This document shows, piece after piece, positions 11,973 through 31,957 of a stretch of DNA of 32,283 nucleotides. Source of the DNA: a virus; the IMG/VR virus record IMGVR_UViG_3300021197_001761, positions 1-32,283 of that record. The stretch is one strand, 5' to 3'. How positions within the stretch are numbered: the stretch's first letter is position 1; each line of letters opens with the position of its first letter. The position numbers and the translations under genes were made by a program. The notes under the pieces were generated by a model. That model was not told the DNA's origin. It ran no database searches and saw nothing but the letters and a program-made list of their open reading frames with translations.

Positions 11973-12881
11973 TTAAAGGTAGTCAGCTACTAATAGCTCT
12001 ACGCGGCCTTTAAGTTCGTTTGAGCTGTTTAATTCCATTTCACGCTCTAACATGCGAGTGGCTAGCTTTTCCATGCTGGCAGGAACAACTAACATGGTTG
12101 GCTTAATACCCAACTTACGGCCACCGTCGGCTTTAAAGCTGCGCATTTTTTCGATGCTGTCCCACAAATTATCTGGCGTTAATGCACGTTTGTTAGCAAA
12201 GGCAAGTTGCCAAAAACCAAAGCCTGCTGCATCACGGCAATCAACGCCGTATCGGTATTCTTTGCGAGTGAATACGGCTTCGTCGTCCATTTTTGTCATA
12301 GCAAGTAAGTTAGGCTTTTTGCGCTCTTGGAAAATAAGCGGCTTAAGGGCTTTTGAGGTATCGAGTACGTACCAGGCTTCGCCCTCGTAGGCTACATCTT
12401 CGGCCATATTGGCAGTAGACACCGCTACACCTGTACCGTCGGCATTTGGATAAACCGGATGATCAACATCAAAATAGTTTTGTCCGTCGTAGCACAAGGT
12501 TGTAAAACCAGCTGCCAACAATGGGAAAATCATTTCGTCTGGGTGAATGGCCGCCGCGTTACCCATTTCTTTAAAAATAGGTGAGTACACTCCTAGGTTG
12601 TCGTCTTCAATATCGTTGCGGTCTACGCCTACCGTTGACTCGTAATCGTCGTTGGTAATGGTGTACGCCTGCGATTTCATACTTTGAATATTACGATCGC
12701 CAATCCATTTAGCCAGGCTTGGGAACTTACCCAACCAGCCATAGGTATTACTGGCCGATGTAGATTTAATTACACTGGCAATTTTATTAAATTGCGGTGC
12801 TGCTTCTGATTTACCTTGTTCAAACTCAGATTTAAACGCGGTAAATAAAGCGTTTAAAATTGCTGGGGTCACTAAAGCCAT
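11973..12881 (-). CDS. T: Major capsid protein (Mu gpT family)
   Basis: A 302-aa protein of the Mu T/HK97-fold capsid family. Recognisable parts are the N terminus (TPAILNALFTAFKSEFEQG), the central TYGWLGKFPSLAKWIGDR at ~47-64, and LCYDGQNYFDVDHPVY at ~128-143. Length matches Mu T (about 305 aa). The ribosome binding site CAGGAG lies before ATG 12881, which overlaps the protease/scaffold stop as TAATG. The product would be the most abundant virion protein; the downstream hairpin fits that. Confidence 0.95.
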   Translation of the reverse strand: MALVTPAILNALFTAFKSEFEQGKSEAAPQFNKIASVIKSTSASNTYGWLGKFPSLAKWIGDRNIQSMKSQAYTITNDDYESTVGVDRNDIEDDNLGVYSPIFKEMGNAAAIHPDEMIFPLLAAGFTTLCYDGQNYFDVDHPVYPNADGTGVAVSTANMAEDVAYEGEAWYVLDTSKALKPLIFQERKKPNLLAMTKMDDEAVFTRKEYRYGVDCRDAAGFGFWQLAFANKRALTPDNLWDSIEKMRSFKADGGRKLGIKPTMLVVPASMEKLATRMLEREMELNSSNELKGRVELLVADYL

Positions 12882-13456
12882 TAGTTTTGCTCCTGTTTAG
12901 CTTTGGCATAAGCAGCATGGCTAAGACCTAATTGGTCTGCTGCATACTTGTCTTCTGCTGTGAGTGCTGCTAAGCCGTCTTTGTCTTGCTCTGGCTTAGG
13001 TGCGTGAGTGGTTTGCTGAGCCGTTAAGCTTGCAATAGGTGAACGGGCATCTAACACCGCTTTTAACGCAACAACGCCTTGCTGATTACCTAAGCTCGTT
13101 AAGTATTCAACTTCGCTGGCGATAATGCGGCCATCTTGTTTAGCCTTGCTAATTTCCTGCTCAACCGTTTGGGTGTCGCTGGTGCTTTTAAGGGCAACCA
13201 TTTCAGTGTGCAATGCGTTGTAGGTTTCAACCGGCACGTACTTAGCTAAATTAACCTCAGAATTTGGGCTATTGGCTTTTAGTGCGGCAACGGCATCGTT
13301 GGCGTTACTTAGCTGGGTAGTGAGCGAGTCGGCTTCGTCGGCCTTAGCCTTTAAAGCAGTGAGCGCTGTTGTTGCTTGGGTGTAGTCTGCATCGGTGATT
13401 TTGTCACCATCCACAGTTATACCTAGCAAGCTCAGCAATTTTTGAGCTGCATTCAT
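12881..13456 (-). CDS. Z: Nested in-frame scaffold protein (Mu gpZ equivalent)
   Basis: An ATG at 13456 (codon 202 of the protease gene) is preceded by TGGAGA with 8 bases before the ATG. This is a better ribosome binding site than that of the full-length gene. It would give a 191-aa protein made only of the helical, charged C-terminal region. In Mu and related phages the scaffold Z is made in this way from the 3' part of gene I. Separate translation is inferred from the ribosome binding site and precedent. Confidence 0.75.
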   Translation of the reverse strand: MNAAQKLLSLLGITVDGDKITDADYTQATTALTALKAKADEADSLTTQLSNANDAVAALKANSPNSEVNLAKYVPVETYNALHTEMVALKSTSDTQTVEQEISKAKQDGRIIASEVEYLTSLGNQQGVVALKAVLDARSPIASLTAQQTTHAPKPEQDKDGLAALTAEDKYAADQLGLSHAAYAKAKQEQN

Positions 13457-14059
13457 GGGTGTATCTCCATTGTTAACATGGGTTTTAGAAGTCTTTAAAA
13501 CAGCAACTTTGTCCATACCGTCTACCGCTGGGTCGTTGGTAAGGGCAAAATGGCGTAATTTGGTTGGGCGGCCTGTTTGTTTGTCGTAATGAAAAACAGG
13601 GCTTATAAAGCGGTATTCGTCGTTTTTTAGGTGTGCGCGTGCGCTAGGTGTCCAGCGTACATTAAGGGCATAAAGTCCCTCGCCTGGCACATACTCTAAG
13701 TCGCTTGGGTTAAACCAGCCACTTGCTGGGGCTGGCTTGCCGTTTTCTTCGGCGTGTAAGGTTTGGTGCTCGTAGTCAAAGTGGTAGTCGTTGGTGCGGG
13801 TGCTGGCTGTGCTTTTTAATAGCTCAAATGCAGCTTGGTCTAGTAACCAGGCATTAGCAGGTACGTCGAATGGGCGGCCATCGTGTGATTTAAAATAGCC
13901 ATCTGGCATCACCATTACTCGCTCGCTTATACCTTGCTCGTTTATGCTGCTTTCAAAGCGGCACGCAGCAAAGCCTAGGTCGGCAGGCTGGTTTGCTGAT
14001 AAAACAGCGAGTCCTATGGTGGTTTCAAGTAAGCTTTTTTTAGTAAATGGTTTTTTCAT
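12881..14059 (-). CDS. I: Head maturation protease with C-terminal scaffold (Mu gpI family)
   Basis: A 392-aa protein. Residues 1-~185 form the Mu I protease domain (PDGYFKSHDGRPFDVPANAW, later ASGWFNPSDLEYVPGEGLYA and LRHFALTNDPAVDGM, the last containing a conserved HFALTNDPAV block). Residues ~202-392 are Ala/Lys/Glu-rich and helical, as in scaffold proteins that fill the prohead and are then digested. The start ATG 14059 has no clear ribosome binding site and stands two bases after a perfect inverted repeat. This is the first gene after the 23-bp late element, corresponding to Mu PI. Confidence 0.93.
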   Translation of the reverse strand: MKKPFTKKSLLETTIGLAVLSANQPADLGFAACRFESSINEQGISERVMVMPDGYFKSHDGRPFDVPANAWLLDQAAFELLKSTASTRTNDYHFDYEHQTLHAEENGKPAPASGWFNPSDLEYVPGEGLYALNVRWTPSARAHLKNDEYRFISPVFHYDKQTGRPTKLRHFALTNDPAVDGMDKVAVLKTSKTHVNNGDTPMNAAQKLLSLLGITVDGDKITDADYTQATTALTALKAKADEADSLTTQLSNANDAVAALKANSPNSEVNLAKYVPVETYNALHTEMVALKSTSDTQTVEQEISKAKQDGRIIASEVEYLTSLGNQQGVVALKAVLDARSPIASLTAQQTTHAPKPEQDKDGLAALTAEDKYAADQLGLSHAAYAKAKQEQN

Positions 14060-14113: not shown

Positions 14114-14136
14114 TTGGCCGTGCGGTGTTTCGGGAA
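14114..14136 (-). promoter_or_regulatory. 23-bp late-promoter element, PI-type copy
   Basis: A 23-bp sequence that begins (plus strand) TTGGCCGTGCGG and ends GTTTCGGGAA is 22/23 identical to 22624-22646. Both lie at the head of a late gene block, in the same orientation. Mu places its activator-dependent promoters PI and Plys at the same two genes. It is therefore the likely site of the Mor/C-type activator encoded at 23818-24237, or part of the promoter it activates. No good sigma70 -10/-35 pair is evident. Confidence 0.65.
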
Positions 14137-20740: not shown

Positions 20741-21055
20741 TTAGCTGTCGTTGCTGCGCGTGCCTCTGAGTTCGTTTTCCATGAGTAGGTCGGTTAAGCG
20801 TTTTAGGTCTTTTAGCTGTGGGTTAAGGCCGTCTATTTTTACGCTTACTTCTAATAGGCGTTTATCTAGGTCGTGTATGTCGTCGGCGTTGGGTAGGTCT
20901 TCTACTGTTTTTTCTACGGCACTTAAACGGCTCTCTAACACCTCATGCACTTTTTTAGTAACAAAGGTACTGCGCAACCATGCCAGTGCGCTTGCCCCAA
21001 TAATGGCAATACCTACGGTTAAAAATGCTTTCCACCATTCCAATATAAAATCCAT
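20741..21055 (-). CDS. DUF2730 membrane-anchored coiled-coil protein (Mu gp25-like)
   Basis: A 104-aa protein starting at ATG 21055, just after the stop of the zinc-finger gene; an in-frame extension upstream to 21136 runs through that gene and is unlikely. Residues ~8-28 (AFLTVGIAIIGASALAWL) are a transmembrane helix; the rest is coiled coil with repeated EVLESRLSAVEKTVEDLP-type heptads and a basic/acidic C terminus. Family DUF2730 occurs in this place in Mu-like phages next to lysis genes. Possible roles are lysis control or membrane attachment. Confidence 0.82.
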   Translation of the reverse strand: MDFILEWWKAFLTVGIAIIGASALAWLRSTFVTKKVHEVLESRLSAVEKTVEDLPNADDIHDLDKRLLEVSVKIDGLNPQLKDLKRLTDLLMENELRGTRSNDS

Positions 21056-21056
21056 G

Positions 21057-21278
21057 CTAGCGCCTATAGTGCTGTTGTTGTATTTCAATAAGTGATTGGC
21101 AATCAACACAGGTGCTACAGTTTTTAACCGCGTCACGGCGTTGCTTGGGTATGGTTATGCCGCACTCTTGGCAGTGCATAAACGCTGCACCGGGCTTATT
21201 GGCTTGTTCGCGCTGAATTGATAGCGCGGCATCGAGTAGGTGTTGCTCTATTTTTTGCGCGTCGTCTAATTTGCTCAC
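21057..21278 (-). CDS. TraR/DksA-type C4 zinc-finger protein
   Basis: A 73-aa protein with GTG start, overlapping the holin stop as GTGA, and an AAGGAAAC ribosome binding site. C-terminal residues hold two CxxC pairs (HCQECGITIPKQRR and CSTCVDCQ), the C4 finger of the TraR/DksA family, which binds RNA polymerase through its secondary channel. Residues 1-30 form the helical tip with DDAQKIE. Such small TraR-like proteins are common in lysis modules of Mu-like phages and may adjust host transcription late in infection. Confidence 0.9.
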   Translation of the reverse strand: MSKLDDAQKIEQHLLDAALSIQREQANKPGAAFMHCQECGITIPKQRRDAVKNCSTCVDCQSLIEIQQQHYRR

Positions 21279-21721
21279 TGCGGTTTCCTTACTTTTTCAA
21301 TTACGTTTTTAATGCTTTGCTTAACGCTTGGCGCGGCTTTTTCAACTGAGCGGCCAATAACATAGCCACCTATACCTAGCTGTAATAGTTCCCATGCTTG
21401 CGCTGATAAACGAAAAGCCAGCACACCAAATGAATCAAGGCAGATCAACACTAAGAACGTAAGCATGGTGATTGGCCGCCAATTACGCTGCAGGGCGCTT
21501 TCGCCTTTGGCCTCGGCGGTAATTATTTGCGATTGCGCCTCTAGTACTTTGCCTTGTAGCTCTACAATTTTGCCCTCAAGCTCTAACACTTGGCTTTGAG
21601 CTGCGTTTTCAATGCGCTTGAGTTCGTTGGTAATGGTTTGGCGCTCTTCGTCGCTGGTAAAGAGATCATCAATTAAATTGGTGATTGGCTCGACCACGTT
21701 AAACCAGTTTTTAATTGCCAT
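21275..21721 (-). CDS. Holin, 3TM/GTA type
   Basis: A 148-aa membrane protein that would open the inner membrane and release the endolysin. ATG 21721 has GGAG 8 bases upstream; the GTG at 21754 extends into the upstream gene and is less likely. Residues ~30-80 are a coiled coil; residues ~82-125 contain NWRPITMLTFLVLICLDSF and LLQLGIGGYVIGRSVEKAAP, the membrane part and conserved ending of this holin family. Placed next to the endolysin gene. Confidence 0.87.
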   Translation of the reverse strand: MAIKNWFNVVEPITNLIDDLFTSDEERQTITNELKRIENAAQSQVLELEGKIVELQGKVLEAQSQIITAEAKGESALQRNWRPITMLTFLVLICLDSFGVLAFRLSAQAWELLQLGIGGYVIGRSVEKAAPSVKQSIKNVIEKVRKPQ

Positions 21722-21974
21722 TGGATTCTCCAAAGCGTTTTTTAAGGGCTTCACGGGCGTTTTTGTAGCTTTGCTGGCCCTCTACCCGCAGCTGTATGTC
21801 GATGGCTCTTACTGATTGCCAGCCTTTATTAAAGTGGCTTTGCATGGTGCCGCAGTGGCTGTGCATTGGTATTTTGCGCGGATCGAATGGCATATTGTGC
21901 ATGCGGGCATCAACTTCTAATTCCATGCGTTTCTCGCGGCCTTTTTGATAGGACCAATCCCAATTTTTACCCAT
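21711..21974 (-). CDS. Lysis-module protein of unknown function
   Basis: An 87-aa basic protein lying between endolysin and holin. Its ATG overlaps the endolysin stop (TAATG) and its stop overlaps the holin start by 11 bases. No signal peptide, membrane segment or lipobox is present, so it is not an evident spanin. The motif PMHSHCGTMQSHFNKGW (residues ~36-52) with His and Cys residues and the C-terminal helix REALKKRFG are notable. It may be a cytoplasmic control protein. Confidence 0.66.
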   Translation of the reverse strand: MGKNWDWSYQKGREKRMELEVDARMHNMPFDPRKIPMHSHCGTMQSHFNKGWQSVRAIDIQLRVEGQQSYKNAREALKKRFGESNGN

Positions 21975-22573
21975 TAGGCCACCTCACTTAGCTGGTTTAC
22001 TGCAAATTCGGTTACGTGGGCTAGGCGGTTATACCAGCCCTCTAGGTTTGGTTTTTGGCTTGAGTCGTTTGCACAAATGCGGGCGTACTTTCGGCCACGG
22101 TTTACGCTGAGCAATACGGTTAAGCTAAGGGCTGGACGCTGCAGGATAGCGGCTAGGGTTTTTGGCCCCATGCGACCATCGGGCTTTGAGTTAACTAATC
22201 GCTGGGTTAATTGGGTCATGGCGGGTGCGCCGTGCTGTACTGCGCCATCTAGCAGCATAAAGTCAACCCCTGCGGGGGTTTGCTCGCAGTGCATGGCGCG
22301 CCAATAATCACGGTGATACAGGCTTATTGCTTTAGCAAGCGTTAGTTTTTCAATATCTACCGCTGGGTAAGCGCGCTGGCTTATACCGTATTTGGTAAGG
22401 CCGCCACGGTCTGATGCCACGTTATTTAACCCACCATCGCTGCGCAAGCCACCCTCTAAATAGAGGATTGGTAATATGCACTGAGCAAATTTAAGCGAGT
22501 ACGGGGCAAGCGCGTTTTGCACTTCGGGTACTTGTTTAAAGTAATTTAAGTTTAGTGGGTTGAATACGAACAT
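21974..22573 (-). CDS. Endolysin, glycosyl hydrolase 108/N-acetylmuramidase type
   Basis: A 199-aa peptidoglycan-cleaving enzyme. The EGG motif (E40-G41-G42, in LYLEGGLRSDGG) supplies the catalytic Glu, followed by SDRGGLTKYGIS (~59-70), the family signature. A C-terminal peptidoglycan-binding part contains DGRMGPKTLAAI (~135-146). ATG 22573 is chosen over an in-frame start at 22705 because it begins the conserved protein and has AAGG 9 bases upstream; the extra 44 residues are not family-like. The start overlaps a 9-bp inverted repeat. No signal peptide, so export needs the holin. Confidence 0.92.
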   Translation of the reverse strand: MFVFNPLNLNYFKQVPEVQNALAPYSLKFAQCILPILYLEGGLRSDGGLNNVASDRGGLTKYGISQRAYPAVDIEKLTLAKAISLYHRDYWRAMHCEQTPAGVDFMLLDGAVQHGAPAMTQLTQRLVNSKPDGRMGPKTLAAILQRPALSLTVLLSVNRGRKYARICANDSSQKPNLEGWYNRLAHVTEFAVNQLSEVA

Positions 22574-22600
22574 ACCGAAAAGCCTTGTTGTTTTTCGGTA
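22573..22600 (-). repeat. Perfect 9-bp inverted repeat enclosing the endolysin ribosome binding site
   Basis: TACCGAAAA and TTTTCGGTA are separated by 10 bases. In the mRNA the loop holds the AAGG ribosome binding site and the end of the 3' arm contributes the A of the ATG. The hairpin therefore could restrict endolysin translation. Compare the inverted repeat next to the protease start. Confidence 0.75.
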
Positions 22601-22623
22601 TTGTGAGGGGGTGTGCTTAGGTG

Positions 22624-22646
22624 TTGGCCGTGCGGGGTTTCGGGAA
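22624..22646 (-). promoter_or_regulatory. 23-bp late-promoter element, Plys-type copy
   Basis: This copy is 22/23 identical to the element at 14114-14136, differing only at the base 13 from its left end. The spacing to the following inverted repeat is 23 bp here and 22 bp there. It stands before the endolysin gene, the position of Plys in Mu. It is the probable target for the Mor/C-type activator. Confidence 0.65.
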
Positions 22647-22661
22647 AGTTTAGTTAAAAAG

Positions 22662-22690
22662 TAGACAACGGCAATAAAGTTTTTTATGGT
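22662..22690 (+). promoter_or_regulatory. Sigma70-type promoter for the secreted cargo protein
   Basis: TAGACA (22662-22667) and TATGGT (22685-22690) are separated by 17 bp, giving 5/6 and 4/6 matches to the consensus. They lie 50 bp before ATG 22740 on the plus strand. A promoter independent of phage control would allow expression in the lysogen. Confidence 0.6.
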
Positions 22691-22739
22691 ACTGCAACTT
22701 AGCAATTTTCGCTAGTTACTATTTAAAAGGACTTAATTT

Positions 22740-23153
22740 ATGAAATACCCCGCCCTTGTTTTTATTGCGTTGTTTTCACTTTCAAGCCATGCGGCTATTT
22801 ATAAATGTGTTATTGATGATGTGCCCACATTTAGCCAAACCCCTTGCGCACCGGATGCTAAAGAGCTGCATTTAAAAGTAACAAAAGCCCCGGATACACA
22901 AGCTGTAAGCAATGATATTTTGCAACAATGCACTGAGCTTGCAAAAAATAGCGGCTGGCGCGATCCCAATTCGTTTATGGTTGTGTCGCATGAAAAGCAA
23001 TGGCGCGATGATGCAAGCGGAGCGCGATTAGTGTTAGCCATGCGAGTGAATGCTAAAAATGGTTATGGTGGGTATGGTGATTCTAAGCCGTTTAATTGCT
23101 TTTTAAATCACAGTGGTACGGGTTTAAGTACTGTTCAACACTGGATTAACTAG
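22740..23153 (+). CDS. Secreted DUF4124-like protein, probable lysogenic cargo gene
   Basis: A 137-aa protein with an 18-residue signal peptide (cleavage likely after SHA) followed by AIYKCVIDDVPTFSQTPC, the short DUF4124-type N-terminal motif. Four Cys in the mature part (23, 36, 64, 120) could form two disulfides, fitting a periplasmic location. AAAGGA lies 8 bases before the ATG. The gene is on the opposite strand to all surrounding phage genes, has its own promoter and is closed by a terminator, the arrangement of a 'moron'. Function of DUF4124 proteins is unknown. Confidence 0.82.
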   Translation: MKYPALVFIALFSLSSHAAIYKCVIDDVPTFSQTPCAPDAKELHLKVTKAPDTQAVSNDILQQCTELAKNSGWRDPNSFMVVSHEKQWRDDASGARLVLAMRVNAKNGYGGYGDSKPFNCFLNHSGTGLSTVQHWIN

Positions 23154-23158
23154 CAATA

Positions 23159-23183
23159 AAAAAGCCGCGTAAAGCGGCTTTTT
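23159..23183. terminator. Bidirectional rho-independent terminator
   Basis: AAAAAGCCGC-GTAAA-GCGGCTTTTT is a perfect stem with a GC core and A/T runs on both sides, placed between the converging cargo gene (+) and the middle operon (-). Confidence 0.92.
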
Positions 23184-23189
23184 AGTGGT

Positions 23190-23468
23190 TCAAATTTGTG
23201 TGCTGGTAAGCATTTTTGGCCGCTTAAATAATAATGCCCTCGTTTGCAGGTCTTCTATGCTAGCTGTTCTACCGTTAATTGATAACACCTTTATACTACC
23301 GCTTTGGTCTGTACTTTCTAATGTTTGGTAGCTCTCTTGTTCTTTAATGTTTTTTAACCAGCTGGCTGCGCGATTAGTTGATACACCAAACACCTGAGCT
23401 AAGGTATGTGAGTTGTAAAACTGCTGGGTTTGTAGCATTTTTTCAGCGGCGTTTATTGTGCTGCTCAT
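23190..23468 (-). CDS. Small DNA-binding-like protein at the end of the middle operon
   Basis: A 92-aa protein. Residues ~17-42 (FYNSHTLAQVFGVSTNRAASWLKNI) read as a helix-turn-helix, suggesting DNA binding. GGAGC precedes ATG 23468, which overlaps the upstream stop. Being next to the Mor-type gene it may take part in late control, but no family is recognised. Confidence 0.65.
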   Translation of the reverse strand: MSSTINAAEKMLQTQQFYNSHTLAQVFGVSTNRAASWLKNIKEQESYQTLESTDQSGSIKVLSINGRTASIEDLQTRALLFKRPKMLTSTQI

Positions 23469-23818
23469 TGACTTAGCTCCTTTACTTTTTGTTGTAGTTC
23501 GGTGATGCCTTGTAACAACTTATTTGGCTGGTGAATAAGCATAAACTCTAGGTCTTGTGCTGTTGTTTTTTCAAGCGCGGCGGGCGTTTTAGCTATGAGC
23601 GGTGCGCCTACTTCGTCTATGAATTTGTTTTCGTCTTGCATTACGTGCAGCTGTATTTGTATGTCGGTGTGCTGTTCTTGCAGTGTGCCCAGTAGTACGT
23701 AATTGTTTGGGTGTTTACCCTCTAGCATATCGACTATTAGCGTATCGACACACTCTACGGCTTCGGCGGCTACGTTAACCGCTTCGCTCATTGGGGCTTT
23801 TTTGGCTGGGTTGTTCAT
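23465..23818 (-). CDS. Hypothetical helical protein after the Mor-type activator
   Basis: A 117-aa acidic protein with helical, coiled-coil-like ends (ITELQQKVKELSQ) and no signal or membrane segment. GGAGA lies before ATG 23818, which overlaps the activator stop as TAATG. Translational coupling to the activator suggests a related role. No family recognised. Confidence 0.68.
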   Translation of the reverse strand: MNNPAKKAPMSEAVNVAAEAVECVDTLIVDMLEGKHPNNYVLLGTLQEQHTDIQIQLHVMQDENKFIDEVGAPLIAKTPAALEKTTAQDLEFMLIHQPNKLLQGITELQQKVKELSQ

Positions 23819-24237
23819 TAAAATAATCTCCTTTGGCGGCGCTCGGTTTCTACAATGCGTTGGTGCTGGATGATTTCAGCTATACGGCGCTCTGTTAGTT
23901 TAAATTTATTGGCAAGCTGCTCGATGTTGTTGCCTTTGTATTCTTGCCATATTTGTATATCGCGCAGGGCTGCTTTTAGGCGTTGGTCGGTGGGTATGTA
24001 TACGTCGCGCCCGCCAAAGTAATGGCCTATTGCTAGGGTTATGGCCTCGCCTACCCCTTGCGGGTTGTTTACGCTGGCTTTGGTTAGCTGCGATTCGATA
24101 AGCAGTGCAAGTGATTGCAGGTTGCTAGGCCAGCGCTTACGTACTTCGGCTGCATCCTCAGTAGATAACTTGCTTAGGCAGTCTTGCAGCTGCTCTACGC
24201 TTTCACCAAACAGCTCTGATTGTTCTTGATTAGGCAT
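23818..24237 (-). CDS. mor: Mor/C family transcription activator of late genes
   Basis: A 139-aa activator. The N-terminal dimerisation part is followed by the family block AITLAIGHYFGGRDVYIP (~65-82) and the C-terminal helix-turn-helix (NNIEQLANKFKLTERRIAEI, ~103-122). ATG 24237 has TGGAG 7 bases upstream; the longer frame to 24297 runs into the previous gene. Mu has separate Mor (middle) and C (late) proteins; only one family member is seen here, so it may serve both steps. The 23-bp elements at 22624 and 14114 are its likely targets. Confidence 0.92.
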   Translation of the reverse strand: MPNQEQSELFGESVEQLQDCLSKLSTEDAAEVRKRWPSNLQSLALLIESQLTKASVNNPQGVGEAITLAIGHYFGGRDVYIPTDQRLKAALRDIQIWQEYKGNNIEQLANKFKLTERRIAEIIQHQRIVETERRQRRLF

Positions 24238-24565
24238 GTTTAAGCTCCAAGTTTTTGTTATACAACCCCACGTTAAAGCCAAATTTATATTGGTCATTCC
24301 AAGAATATGTGTTTGTGTTTTTTTGATTTATAAGGCCATCTGCATAACCACTTTGATAATCTGCGTTGGTATCTGAAATTGATTTAATTGGGTAAATAAC
24401 TGGCACAAACTCATTGGCTTTCACAAAAATTTTGTTTCCGCAAATACGTACTTTTTTGCCAGCCCATACTTTAAATTGAAATGGTTGGCAGTCGATGATC
24501 ACATCATCTTTTATAATCCACTCTAAAAAGTCTTGGCCTTGGTCTAAAAATTTAATTGTTTTCAT
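24230..24565 (-). CDS. Hypothetical protein, AT-rich gene
   Basis: A 111-aa protein, rich in aromatic residues, Asn and Lys, with no signal peptide. The first part alternates strands (FLEWIIKDDVIIDCQPFQF), and the second has a helix-like YQSGYADGLINQK. The gene is clearly more AT-rich by eye than its neighbours, which suggests separate acquisition. It ends 8 bases inside the activator gene. Function unknown. Confidence 0.65.
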   Translation of the reverse strand: MKTIKFLDQGQDFLEWIIKDDVIIDCQPFQFKVWAGKKVRICGNKIFVKANEFVPVIYPIKSISDTNADYQSGYADGLINQKNTNTYSWNDQYKFGFNVGLYNKNLELKHA

Positions 24566-24567
24566 TA

Positions 24568-25062
24568 TTACTTTTCCTTATTTACTTTTGCGCCGTAGCG
24601 ATTCATTTGCTCTAAATAGGCTTGGTGGTTTTGTTGCTCACTCATTTCTAAGCCCTGGCGTTTTATTTCCATACTGCGGCTACGCTGTGCGGCGGTTGGC
24701 TGCACTATTTGCTCTAGTGAGGTGGTGAGCACTTGTTTTAAGTAGTTATGGTTTGCAAGCGGCTTTATGTTTGGCTGGCCTACTCGCTTTGCCATGATTG
24801 AATTGGTGGTTTGCTCCATAGCGTGGCCCAGTGCCGCTACGTTCTCGGTTAGGGCTAGTACTTCATGGGCTAGCTTTACTGCGCGTGTGGCGCTTAAGTC
24901 CTGCTTTGCTGGGCGAAACAGGGCTAAGTAACCGACCAATGCCTGGGCTGTGCGTTTGTTGATGCTGGCTACGATGCTTAATAGTTCTTTGCCTGCGTCG
25001 TCTTGCACTAGCTGATCTAGGCTTAGGTGGCTTTTACACACGGGGCAACGGGTTAATTTCAT
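24568..25062 (-). CDS. Hypothetical zinc-ribbon-start protein after GemA
   Basis: A 164-aa protein counted from ATG 25062; a longer in-frame start at 25158 lies inside gemA and is unlikely. The N terminus MKLTRCPVCKSHLSLDQL has one CxxC pair and resembles a zinc-ribbon knuckle. The rest is helical, with a Gln-rich coiled-coil end. It overlaps the gemA 3' end by 29 bases. No function recognised. Confidence 0.66.
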   Translation of the reverse strand: MKLTRCPVCKSHLSLDQLVQDDAGKELLSIVASINKRTAQALVGYLALFRPAKQDLSATRAVKLAHEVLALTENVAALGHAMEQTTNSIMAKRVGQPNIKPLANHNYLKQVLTTSLEQIVQPTAAQRSRSMEIKRQGLEMSEQQNHQAYLEQMNRYGAKVNKEK

Positions 25063-31339: not shown

Positions 31340-31957
31340 ATGGCTGCATTCAACGACTATTTAAAATCGTTACGGGAACAAAAAGCCCTGGACATAGGCA
31401 CTGTTGCTAAACGCATTGGAGTGCATAGACATACTCAGTCAAATTATGAGGACCATAGAGATCCCCCAATAGATTACTTGGTTGATTTTGCAGAGTTGGT
31501 GGGTGTGCCGTTTACTGAAATTCTTAAGCAACGCCTGGATAACTCAAAAGCCACTGAACAAGCTGCTAAAAAAGCTATTAGTTCTTTAAACGCAGTAGAT
31601 TCAACCTATAACACAGTTTCTGATAATTCACTTAAGTACAAAACTAGTAGCGAATTACTGCAAGTAAAACTTGGTGAGCTTTCACATACTGCTATACCTA
31701 TGGATGCAACCGTATACATTGACACCTGCAACAAGAACGTTGCACCTGGTGCTATGTATGGCTTTCTAAACCCAATGACCGGTTGTTACTTTGCAGCTAA
31801 ACTAGCGTTAACTGATACACAGCTAAGGTTAGTGTTTGATAACGCAAAGCGTAAAGATGCTGTATTTGATATTGAGGATGGCAGTAATGAATTGCATTAT
31901 GTTTTAAAAACTTTAGGTCTTTTAGGTAGGATTATTAAGGCTGAGCTTATTTTTTAG
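31340..31957 (+). CDS. Lysogeny repressor with Xre-type HTH and S24-like C-terminal domain
   Basis: A 205-aa protein. Residues 5-60 form the HTH (IGTVAKRIGVHRHTQSNYED); residues ~115-205 have the strand order of a LexA/CI S24 domain (VYIDTCNKNVAPGAMYGF, then YFAAKL, LRLVFDN and GLLGRIIKAEL). The usual Ser-Met active site is replaced by IPMDATV and no Ala-Gly cleavage site is clear, so self-cleavage is doubtful. It is divergent from ner and the only phage control gene on the plus strand. No strong ribosome binding site is seen. The transposase-binding repeat overlaps its stop. Confidence 0.88.
   Translation: MAAFNDYLKSLREQKALDIGTVAKRIGVHRHTQSNYEDHRDPPIDYLVDFAELVGVPFTEILKQRLDNSKATEQAAKKAISSLNAVDSTYNTVSDNSLKYKTSSELLQVKLGELSHTAIPMDATVYIDTCNKNVAPGAMYGFLNPMTGCYFAAKLALTDTQLRLVFDNAKRKDAVFDIEDGSNELHYVLKTLGLLGRIIKAELIF
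31704..31718. promoter_or_regulatory. Operator-like site inside the repressor gene
   Basis: ATGCAACCGTATACA matches the 15-bp operator pattern at 12 of 15 positions. It lies about 360 bp past the repressor start. Weaker evidence than the other copies because coding constraints also apply. Confidence 0.4.

Follow-up and report, generated by a model that had tools for sequence, protein, structure and literature searches.

What does a single small gene contribute to a Mu-like phage when it stands beside the endolysin gene and is read against both of its neighbours? The question is raised by a virus record from IMG/VR, 32,283 bases in length, which was analysed as a whole (the window). Among the products that it encodes are a Mu-type transposase, a Mor activator, a GTA-type holin and a GH108 endolysin. 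Its DNA is that of a Mu-like, HS6-like phage of Pseudoalteromonas; the nearest named phage that we found for it is Pseudoalteromonas phage HS6, presented by its authors as a North Sea isolate and a Mu-like siphovirus hybrid (PMC5498523). The original prediction described the gene as a secreted cargo gene of DUF4124-like type, independently transcribed inside the lysis region, which could alter the host envelope when expressed in the lysogen, superinfection exclusion being its example.

The moron gene and its apparent transcription unit

The gene, referred to here as the moron, lies on the plus strand, and both flanking genes, a 92-aa gene (23190-23468) and the endolysin reading frame (21974-22705), lie on the minus strand, so that the predicted opposite-strand placement holds (Table 1). 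By our reading, the only plus-strand genes among those taken as real are the moron and a repressor-like gene at 31340-31957; the further plus-strand reading frames are numerous, nearly all overlap minus-strand genes, and they were excluded from this set. Rfam gave 0 matches in the window at gathering scores.

Table 1. Features of the moron locus, numbered by position in the window.
Feature	Position	Strand	Remarks
Endolysin leader hairpin	22572..22601	-	AAGG in loop
22-bp motif TTCCCGAAACNCCGCACGGCCA, probable late-promoter or activator site of the lysis operon	22625..22646	-	right border of slot
Candidate sigma-70-type promoter of the moron, TAGACA-N17-TATGGT	22662..22690	+	hexamers conserved
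AAGGA ribosome-binding site	22727..22731	+	8 nt before ATG; invariant in 8 phages
Moron gene; product P0001, 137 aa, probably exported	22740..23153	+	HS6 gp40 orthologue; phrog_2320
Signal peptide MKYPALVFIALFSLSSHA	22740..22793	+	cleavage between SHA and A, read by eye
DUF4124-like part, residues 20-48	22797..22883	+	resembles one Pseudoalteromonas chromosomal paralogue
C-terminal VNAKN-GGY domain, residues 57-135	22908..23144	+	model: one helix, three strands
Predicted intrinsic terminator, 10-bp stem	23159..23183	+	could also act on other strand
Left border of slot: two genes on the downstream side of mor, of 92 aa (phrog_27037) and 117 aa (phrog_12601)	23190..23818	-	

The moron reading frame begins with ATG, and its relatives keep both place and orientation: gp40 of HS6 (YP_010660062.1) is 91% identical to P0001, and the products in six viral contigs are 72-91% identical. 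HS6 also shares the slot, the leader and the terminator, and differs in one extra regulator-like gene between its moron and the mor side; its record names gp40 a DUF4124 domain-containing protein and assigns no function. Pairwise dN/dS among the eight orthologues, window included, is 0.05-0.21 over 28 pairs. The orthologues are thus under purifying selection, and the gene is a real coding gene; we regard it as a genuine, conserved moron. Constraint is greatest in the C-terminal domain (pN/pS 0.16, versus 0.33 for the DUF4124-like part with the linker and 0.35 for the signal peptide), and the base composition of the gene is only mildly odd (GC z -1.4 and GC3 z -1.9 against 20 core genes).

The signal peptide of the original prediction is borne out by eye: the N-terminus of P0001, MKYPALVFIALFSLSSHA followed by AIYKC, reads as a signal-peptidase-I-like signal, the predicted model places a helix at residues 5-12 within it, and the protein is probably exported. 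No lipobox was seen by eye, and the mature protein has four conserved cysteines. The best family for P0001 is phrog_2320 (E 1e-23, residues 1-133), to which no function is assigned. NCBIfam returned nothing for P0001, PADLOC gave no match at E 1, and the search by sequence for solved relatives yielded none, its sole matches standing at E 0.42 and 0.82. We found no functional study of the moron gene in the literature.

The claim of an own promoter stands in part. A TAGACA-N17-TATGGT site is present and its hexamers are conserved, with none of their 12 bases variable versus 21 of the 86 columns across the region in eight aligned phages (hypergeometric p 0.026, calculated post hoc on hexamers that had already been chosen); eight of the variable upstream columns fall within the spacer. 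This conservation gives the candidate promoter modest support. The match to the consensus is itself no better than chance and carries no weight alone, since a scan of 21000-25000 found three sites of this type against 6.0 in shuffled sequence. The predicted terminator fared better. Its hairpin folds at a computed -15.3 kcal/mol with z -3.8 (-5.3 for the opposite strand) and has a T tract, and the stem is kept in all seven sequences compared, the window and six relatives; a simple sequence scan of 21000-25000 did not list it. DNA homology among the relatives stops just 3' of the stem, which suggests that the cassette ends at the terminator, like an exchangeable unit. With a candidate promoter, a terminator-like hairpin and a place on the opposite strand, the moron is apparently an independent unit, as had been claimed.

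Its location inside the lysis region needs to be restated: the moron adjoins the endolysin unit, but the lysis transcription unit does not include it; the moron sits just past the probable late promoter of that unit. The window contains exactly two copies of the motif TTCCCGAAACNCCGCACGGCCA, each on the minus strand (expected 0.00), one 52 bases upstream of the endolysin ATG and one at 14115-14136, 56 bases upstream of the gene at 12881-14059, and both copies are probable late-promoter or activator sites. The same motif or a near version of it precedes the endolysin in HS6-like relatives, and a sister group (L193, L194, L198-L200 and L202) has another sequence at this position. As the slot ends at this motif, the moron falls outside the lysis unit.

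Conservation of the upstream motif and hairpin indicates that the true start of the endolysin is probably the ATG at 22573. The leader hairpin, ATACCGAAAA-N10-TTTTCGGTAT (z -2.9), has this start codon at the foot of its stem; it carries a C-G to T-A double change in L196 and L197, and unrelated, stronger hairpins occupy the position in L194, L198 and L199. Three of the nine leader stretches (L181, L196 and L200) were cut with an incomplete hairpin, which makes their z scores of -0.9, -0.4 and -1.2 uninformative. Translational control of lysis by this hairpin is possible.

A variable cargo slot beside the lysis promoter

Relatives of the locus were collected through the endolysin (30 loci) and through the 117-aa mor-side gene (eight loci). 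The slot table comprises 32 loci, the window and HS6 having been added to the 30 from the endolysin search, and the left border is present in 20 of these, which are the readable slots. The moron occupies a variable slot between the mor-side genes and the lysis promoter. Seven readable slots hold the moron (the window, HS6, L177, L179, L180, L182 and L195), six a KAP-type NTPase (L181, L183, L184, L186, L187 and L190) and seven other cargo (L171, L176, L185, L188, L189, L196 and L197). The KAP NTPase and the moron are together in none of the 20, and none is empty: the flanks are shared, and 13 slots have other cargo instead of the moron. Three neighbouring gene families are common to L184, L180 and L195, and the last gene differs, being a KAP NTPase in L184 versus the moron in L180 and L195. 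In 12 loci no left border was recognised, and one of these, L178, carries the moron at a contig end.

The alternative cargo was compared with the PADLOC models, whose PDC families are defence candidates and not proven defence. The KAP proteins of L183, L190 and L170 match PDC-S20 (E 4e-77 to 3e-81); L170 is the same contig as L184, so that three of the six KAP proteins were tested directly, and the other three are counted by BLAST cluster. A literature search on PDC-S20 found no paper. The slot protein of L185 matches PDC-S49 (E 2e-22), that of L197 matches PDC-S42 (E 7e-36), and one L176 protein matches PDC-S22 (E 2e-11) over a single 74-residue stretch, which may be one shared domain only. 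Candidate anti-phage genes are therefore present in nine of the 13 moron-free readable slots (eight without L176), and with this slot content the idea that the moron is cargo has stronger support than when it was put forward. The remaining four slots (L171, L188, L189 and L196) gave no PADLOC match, on part of the proteins in L188, L189 and L196 and on none of L171's own. Unmatched at E 0.01 were two proteins each of L188, L189 and L196, one each of L193, L194, L200 and L182, a 200-aa protein of L198 and a 181-aa protein of L176; a 275-aa protein of L183 (E 0.009) and a 175-aa protein of L198 (E 0.0006) matched weakly.

A more distant phage, L194, in which the left border was not recognised, carries a 42% homologue directly before the endolysin leader and in reversed orientation, as an autonomous unit could behave. 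A close copy of this homologue in L202 (5502-5914) has a disrupted reading frame, and the copy in L194 is intact.

Other small genes were seen upstream of the endolysin. The slot proteins at L176:5382-5927 and L171:1268-1708 precede it and have a transmembrane segment and a cysteine-containing tail (QNxxxVWQxxxYKC), and the L176 protein has in addition a Zn-ribbon. Homology between the VNAKN-GGY domain of the moron product and the C-terminus of the cargo protein of L176 and L171 was considered and rejected at an hhalign probability of about 0, which is weak evidence, as one of the alignments had only two rows. In the sister lineage, L193, L194, L199, L200 and L202 encode small peptides upstream of the endolysin (at about 3.7-5.8 kb) whose leader is double-glycine-like (VVGGNGSG, VIGGSAGGG). 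They look bacteriocin- or microcin-like by eye, and several adjoin small genes for hydrophobic proteins.

A DUF4124-like part joined to a VNAKN-GGY domain

The label DUF4124-like, under which the product had been described, suits the N-terminal part of P0001 but not the rest, which is a separate C-terminal domain. Pfam PF13511 matches residues 10-53 only, at E 0.0019 and 18.8 bits, below the gathering score of 22, and two orthologues reach 19.3 and 19.5 bits. The closest cellular match that we found for this part is one Pseudoalteromonas protein, at 44-58% over 36-52 residues. A scan of 84,980 species with two exact peptide patterns, which more diverged copies would escape, matched 31 stretches, and all eight confirmed loci are Pseudoalteromonas; weaker second matches occur in the same host genomes (E 1e-4 to 0.008). 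The host protein consists of a signal peptide, DUF4124 and a probable coiled-coil C-terminus, unlike that of the moron product. Its chromosomal copies (L010-L017, at about 5.96-6.45 kb) have a TfpC-like layout, and in the two loci viewed, L010 and L017, the gene adjoins one that reads as aminotransferase-like.

TfpC, a DUF4124 protein, maintains type IV pili in Neisseria gonorrhoeae, and like P0001 it combines a signal with DUF4124 in an exported protein; it differs in being encoded by a cellular gene and, as its authors describe it, in having a transmembrane helix, a proline-rich stretch and a C-terminal coiled coil in place of the VNAKN-GGY domain (PMC7593972). By this analogy, a link between DUF4124 and type IV pili would rest on one protein. 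We found no paper joining DUF4124, phage and superinfection exclusion.

Such a link would suit a lysogenic-conversion gene that does not exclude other phages and instead alters a host envelope trait, such as pili, adhesion, stress or secretion, to the benefit of the lysogen. The resemblance of the DUF4124-like part to a host protein (up to 58% over 36 aa), the role of TfpC, and the occurrence of the phrog_2320 family in bacterial genomes all favour this explanation. Set against it are the alternative cargo of the slot, which is largely candidate defence, and the caution of the TfpC authors that the number of true orthologues among DUF4124 proteins is not known (PMC7593972). We regard conversion without exclusion as rather unlikely, though it is the closest competitor of exclusion.

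The C-terminal domain has the consensus LKDPxSAxF ... VNAKNSYGGYxG, and no Pfam or NCBIfam model was found for it. At E 0.001 its family members match DUF4124 alone in Pfam (4 of 82, P0001 falling short of this threshold and so not being among the four) and three models in NCBIfam, with one member each. The DNA pattern for VNAKNxYG(G/A)Y matched at least 119 stretches of viral contigs, from which 132 reading frames with the motif in frame and 99 non-redundant members were obtained. For the alignment A5, P0001 and the L194 homologue were joined with 80 of the 99 members, selected by hand, which gave 82 rows, and A8 retains 79 of these, with rows of odd length omitted; the near-invariance of the motif in both is built in by the pattern-based collection, while the conservation of D75 and S78 is not. 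A literature search for VNAKNSYGGY found no paper.

Family traits were tested on 69 of the 132 motif genes, near-duplicates and genes near locus ends having been removed, against controls taken from the same contigs with a crude longest-ORF caller. By a terminator rule of our own, a terminator-like site lies 3' of 36 of the 69 genes versus 47 of 537 controls of at least 120 aa (p 9e-17); among longer controls, of at least 200 aa, the figure is 24 of 289. Opposition to both neighbours is not enriched (10 of 69 genes and 72 of 449 controls; p 0.86), and the same holds for at least 60 free bases upstream (23 of 69 versus 169 of 449, p 0.59). Orientation and a free upstream gap were therefore dropped as traits of the family, and by this test an own promoter is no family trait. 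A loose lipobox pattern is found in 34 of the 69, so that about half look like lipoproteins.

Nine annotated phages besides HS6 were picked by hand from the matches listed (10, 6, 43 and 68 records matched). ES18 gp20 is annotated as a 'possible moron' and is flanked on either side by a putative terminator, and SEN4_30, Zirinka gp16 and the PCA1 homologue each oppose both neighbours. PAJU2 gp26 lies between an antirepressor and an endolysin, near an O-antigen acetylase. The homologues of LMessi, KPP5665-2 and Medea1 are co-directional among tail genes, and ORF87 of Ab105-2phi runs the same way as its neighbours, with a GH108 gene at a distance of about 2.6 kb; the LMessi homologue gave no megablast match in E. 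coli genomes. Phage proteins of this kind (ES18 gp20, SEN4_30, Zirinka gp16 and PAJU2 gp26) resemble the moron product in the DPxS and NAKN-type motifs of their C-terminal domain and often in a terminator-like site, and a lipobox or signal peptide can often be read by eye; unlike it, most members of the family are without a recognisable DUF4124 part.

These positions bear on two further explanations. The moron might act in the lytic phase, being made late beside the lysis promoter and helping or delaying rupture of the envelope. It adjoins the endolysin unit, with its -35 hexamer beginning 15 bases beyond the 22-bp late motif, and homologues adjoin the endolysin in PAJU2, lie near the GH108 gene in Ab105-2phi and share the endolysin strand in L194. 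However, transcription of the moron points away from the lysis genes and meets its own predicted terminator, the moron is missing from 13 of the 20 readable relatives, which retain the endolysin, and homologues elsewhere sit in tail operons or adjoin an integrase; a lytic-phase function seems improbable to us. That the product is a component of the virion, as the homologues among tail genes might suggest, is very improbable indeed, given the signal peptide and given that the structural DUFs which the HS6 authors report for their set of eight phages are 935, 1320, 4128, 4055, 3383 and 2612, not 4124 (PMC5498523). Co-directional homologues in tail operons would also count against the reading of the moron as an autonomous unit.

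Outside phages, phrog_2320 was matched at E 0.001 in 8 of the 274 genomes from a host's class and in 2 of 14 control genomes, two of the eight (G002 and G058) through the N-terminal part only; this bacterial presence would count against reading the moron as an exclusion gene. Bacterial chromosomal or contig copies were viewed at L028-L033, with the NAKN motif read in L028 and L030. The plasmid pALVIN01 of Allochromatium vinosum (L213) bears a homologue with 33% identity over 90% of the protein; a type I restriction gene lies about 2 kb away, and an HNH endonuclease gene is close by.

The AlphaFold2 model has a pLDDT of 94 in the domain and 84.5 over the whole protein. By VIA, the best fold match of the whole model is the Adhiron 4n6t (Z 5.9, 2.8 Å over 67 residues), a weak match to a common arrangement; the domain alone weakly matches the Affimer 5mn2 (Z 5.3, 3.9 Å over 71) and the VirB8-like 7pkw (Z 5.0, 3.5 Å over 73). 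Foldseek found no match with E below 0.001 in PDB or BFVD. As these resemblances, cystatin-like and NTF2-like, are weak, the fold is uninformative on function.

Superinfection exclusion as a tentative function

The moron is most likely a lysogenic-conversion gene, and an effect on the envelope of the lysogen is proposed from the likely export of its product, its apparently independent transcription, and a slot that it has in common with candidate defence genes. Superinfection exclusion is our best guess at its predicted function, and a tentative one. One promoter, one gene and one terminator would fill the cargo slot of these HS6-like Mu-like phages. We infer that transcription of the moron starts at its own promoter, runs against the phage operons and probably takes place in the quiet lysogen, and that the product, once exported, folds in the periplasm into a small, disulfide-capable protein, in which a DUF4124-like part resembling a host envelope protein would be joined to a helix-plus-sheet domain with the NAKN-YG-Y motif. 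The product would most likely bind a component of the host envelope or the injection apparatus of an incoming phage, and we infer that this binding would lower superinfection.

Exclusion by a phage protein at the level of the envelope is known from Cor. The Cor proteins of N15 and phi80 (phrog_1119) resemble the moron product as small exported phage proteins; they are encoded near tail genes and annotated as exclusion proteins. They differ as lipoproteins (by reading) of 77-78 aa that belong to another PHROG. A Cor-like identity of P0001, suggested by the NAKN motif, was rejected, the two Cor proteins being another family: P0001 has no match to phrog_1119 at E 1, whereas the Cor proteins of N15 (3e-32) and phi80 (7e-37) do match. 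We found no sequence link from P0001 to a known exclusion protein. SieA of P22 is likewise an exclusion protein made by the prophage at the envelope, but it is described as residing in the inner membrane, with three transmembrane domains predicted and without an obvious signal sequence (PMC10883804). As for the slot, accessory 'regions of genomic plasticity', with single genes swapped at fixed places and considered possible morons, are reported from D3112-like Mu-like phages, which differ in having Pseudomonas hosts (PMC4378225).

The two parts of the product can also be read jointly. The VNAKN-GGY domain would then be a widespread but unrecognised envelope-exclusion module, present in bacterial genomes as well as in phages of Gram-negatives and of Gordonia, and joined here to a host-derived DUF4124 part as a decoy; the product would replace the host DUF4124 protein in its envelope machine, possibly the type IV pili, and so shut the door used by rival phages. 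We give this joint reading a small chance of being right.

Temperate phages alter the envelopes of their host cells, and many candidate genes for such changes are unnamed. The moron leads from one such gene to a domain that many phages carry, whose family is without a Pfam or NCBIfam model that we could find, and also to a defined cargo slot in marine Mu-like phages in which a one-gene cassette is exchanged with candidate defence systems. The interest lies in this unnamed family and in the slot, more than in the moron gene alone; and since both HS6 and its host are cultured, what the moron does is directly testable.
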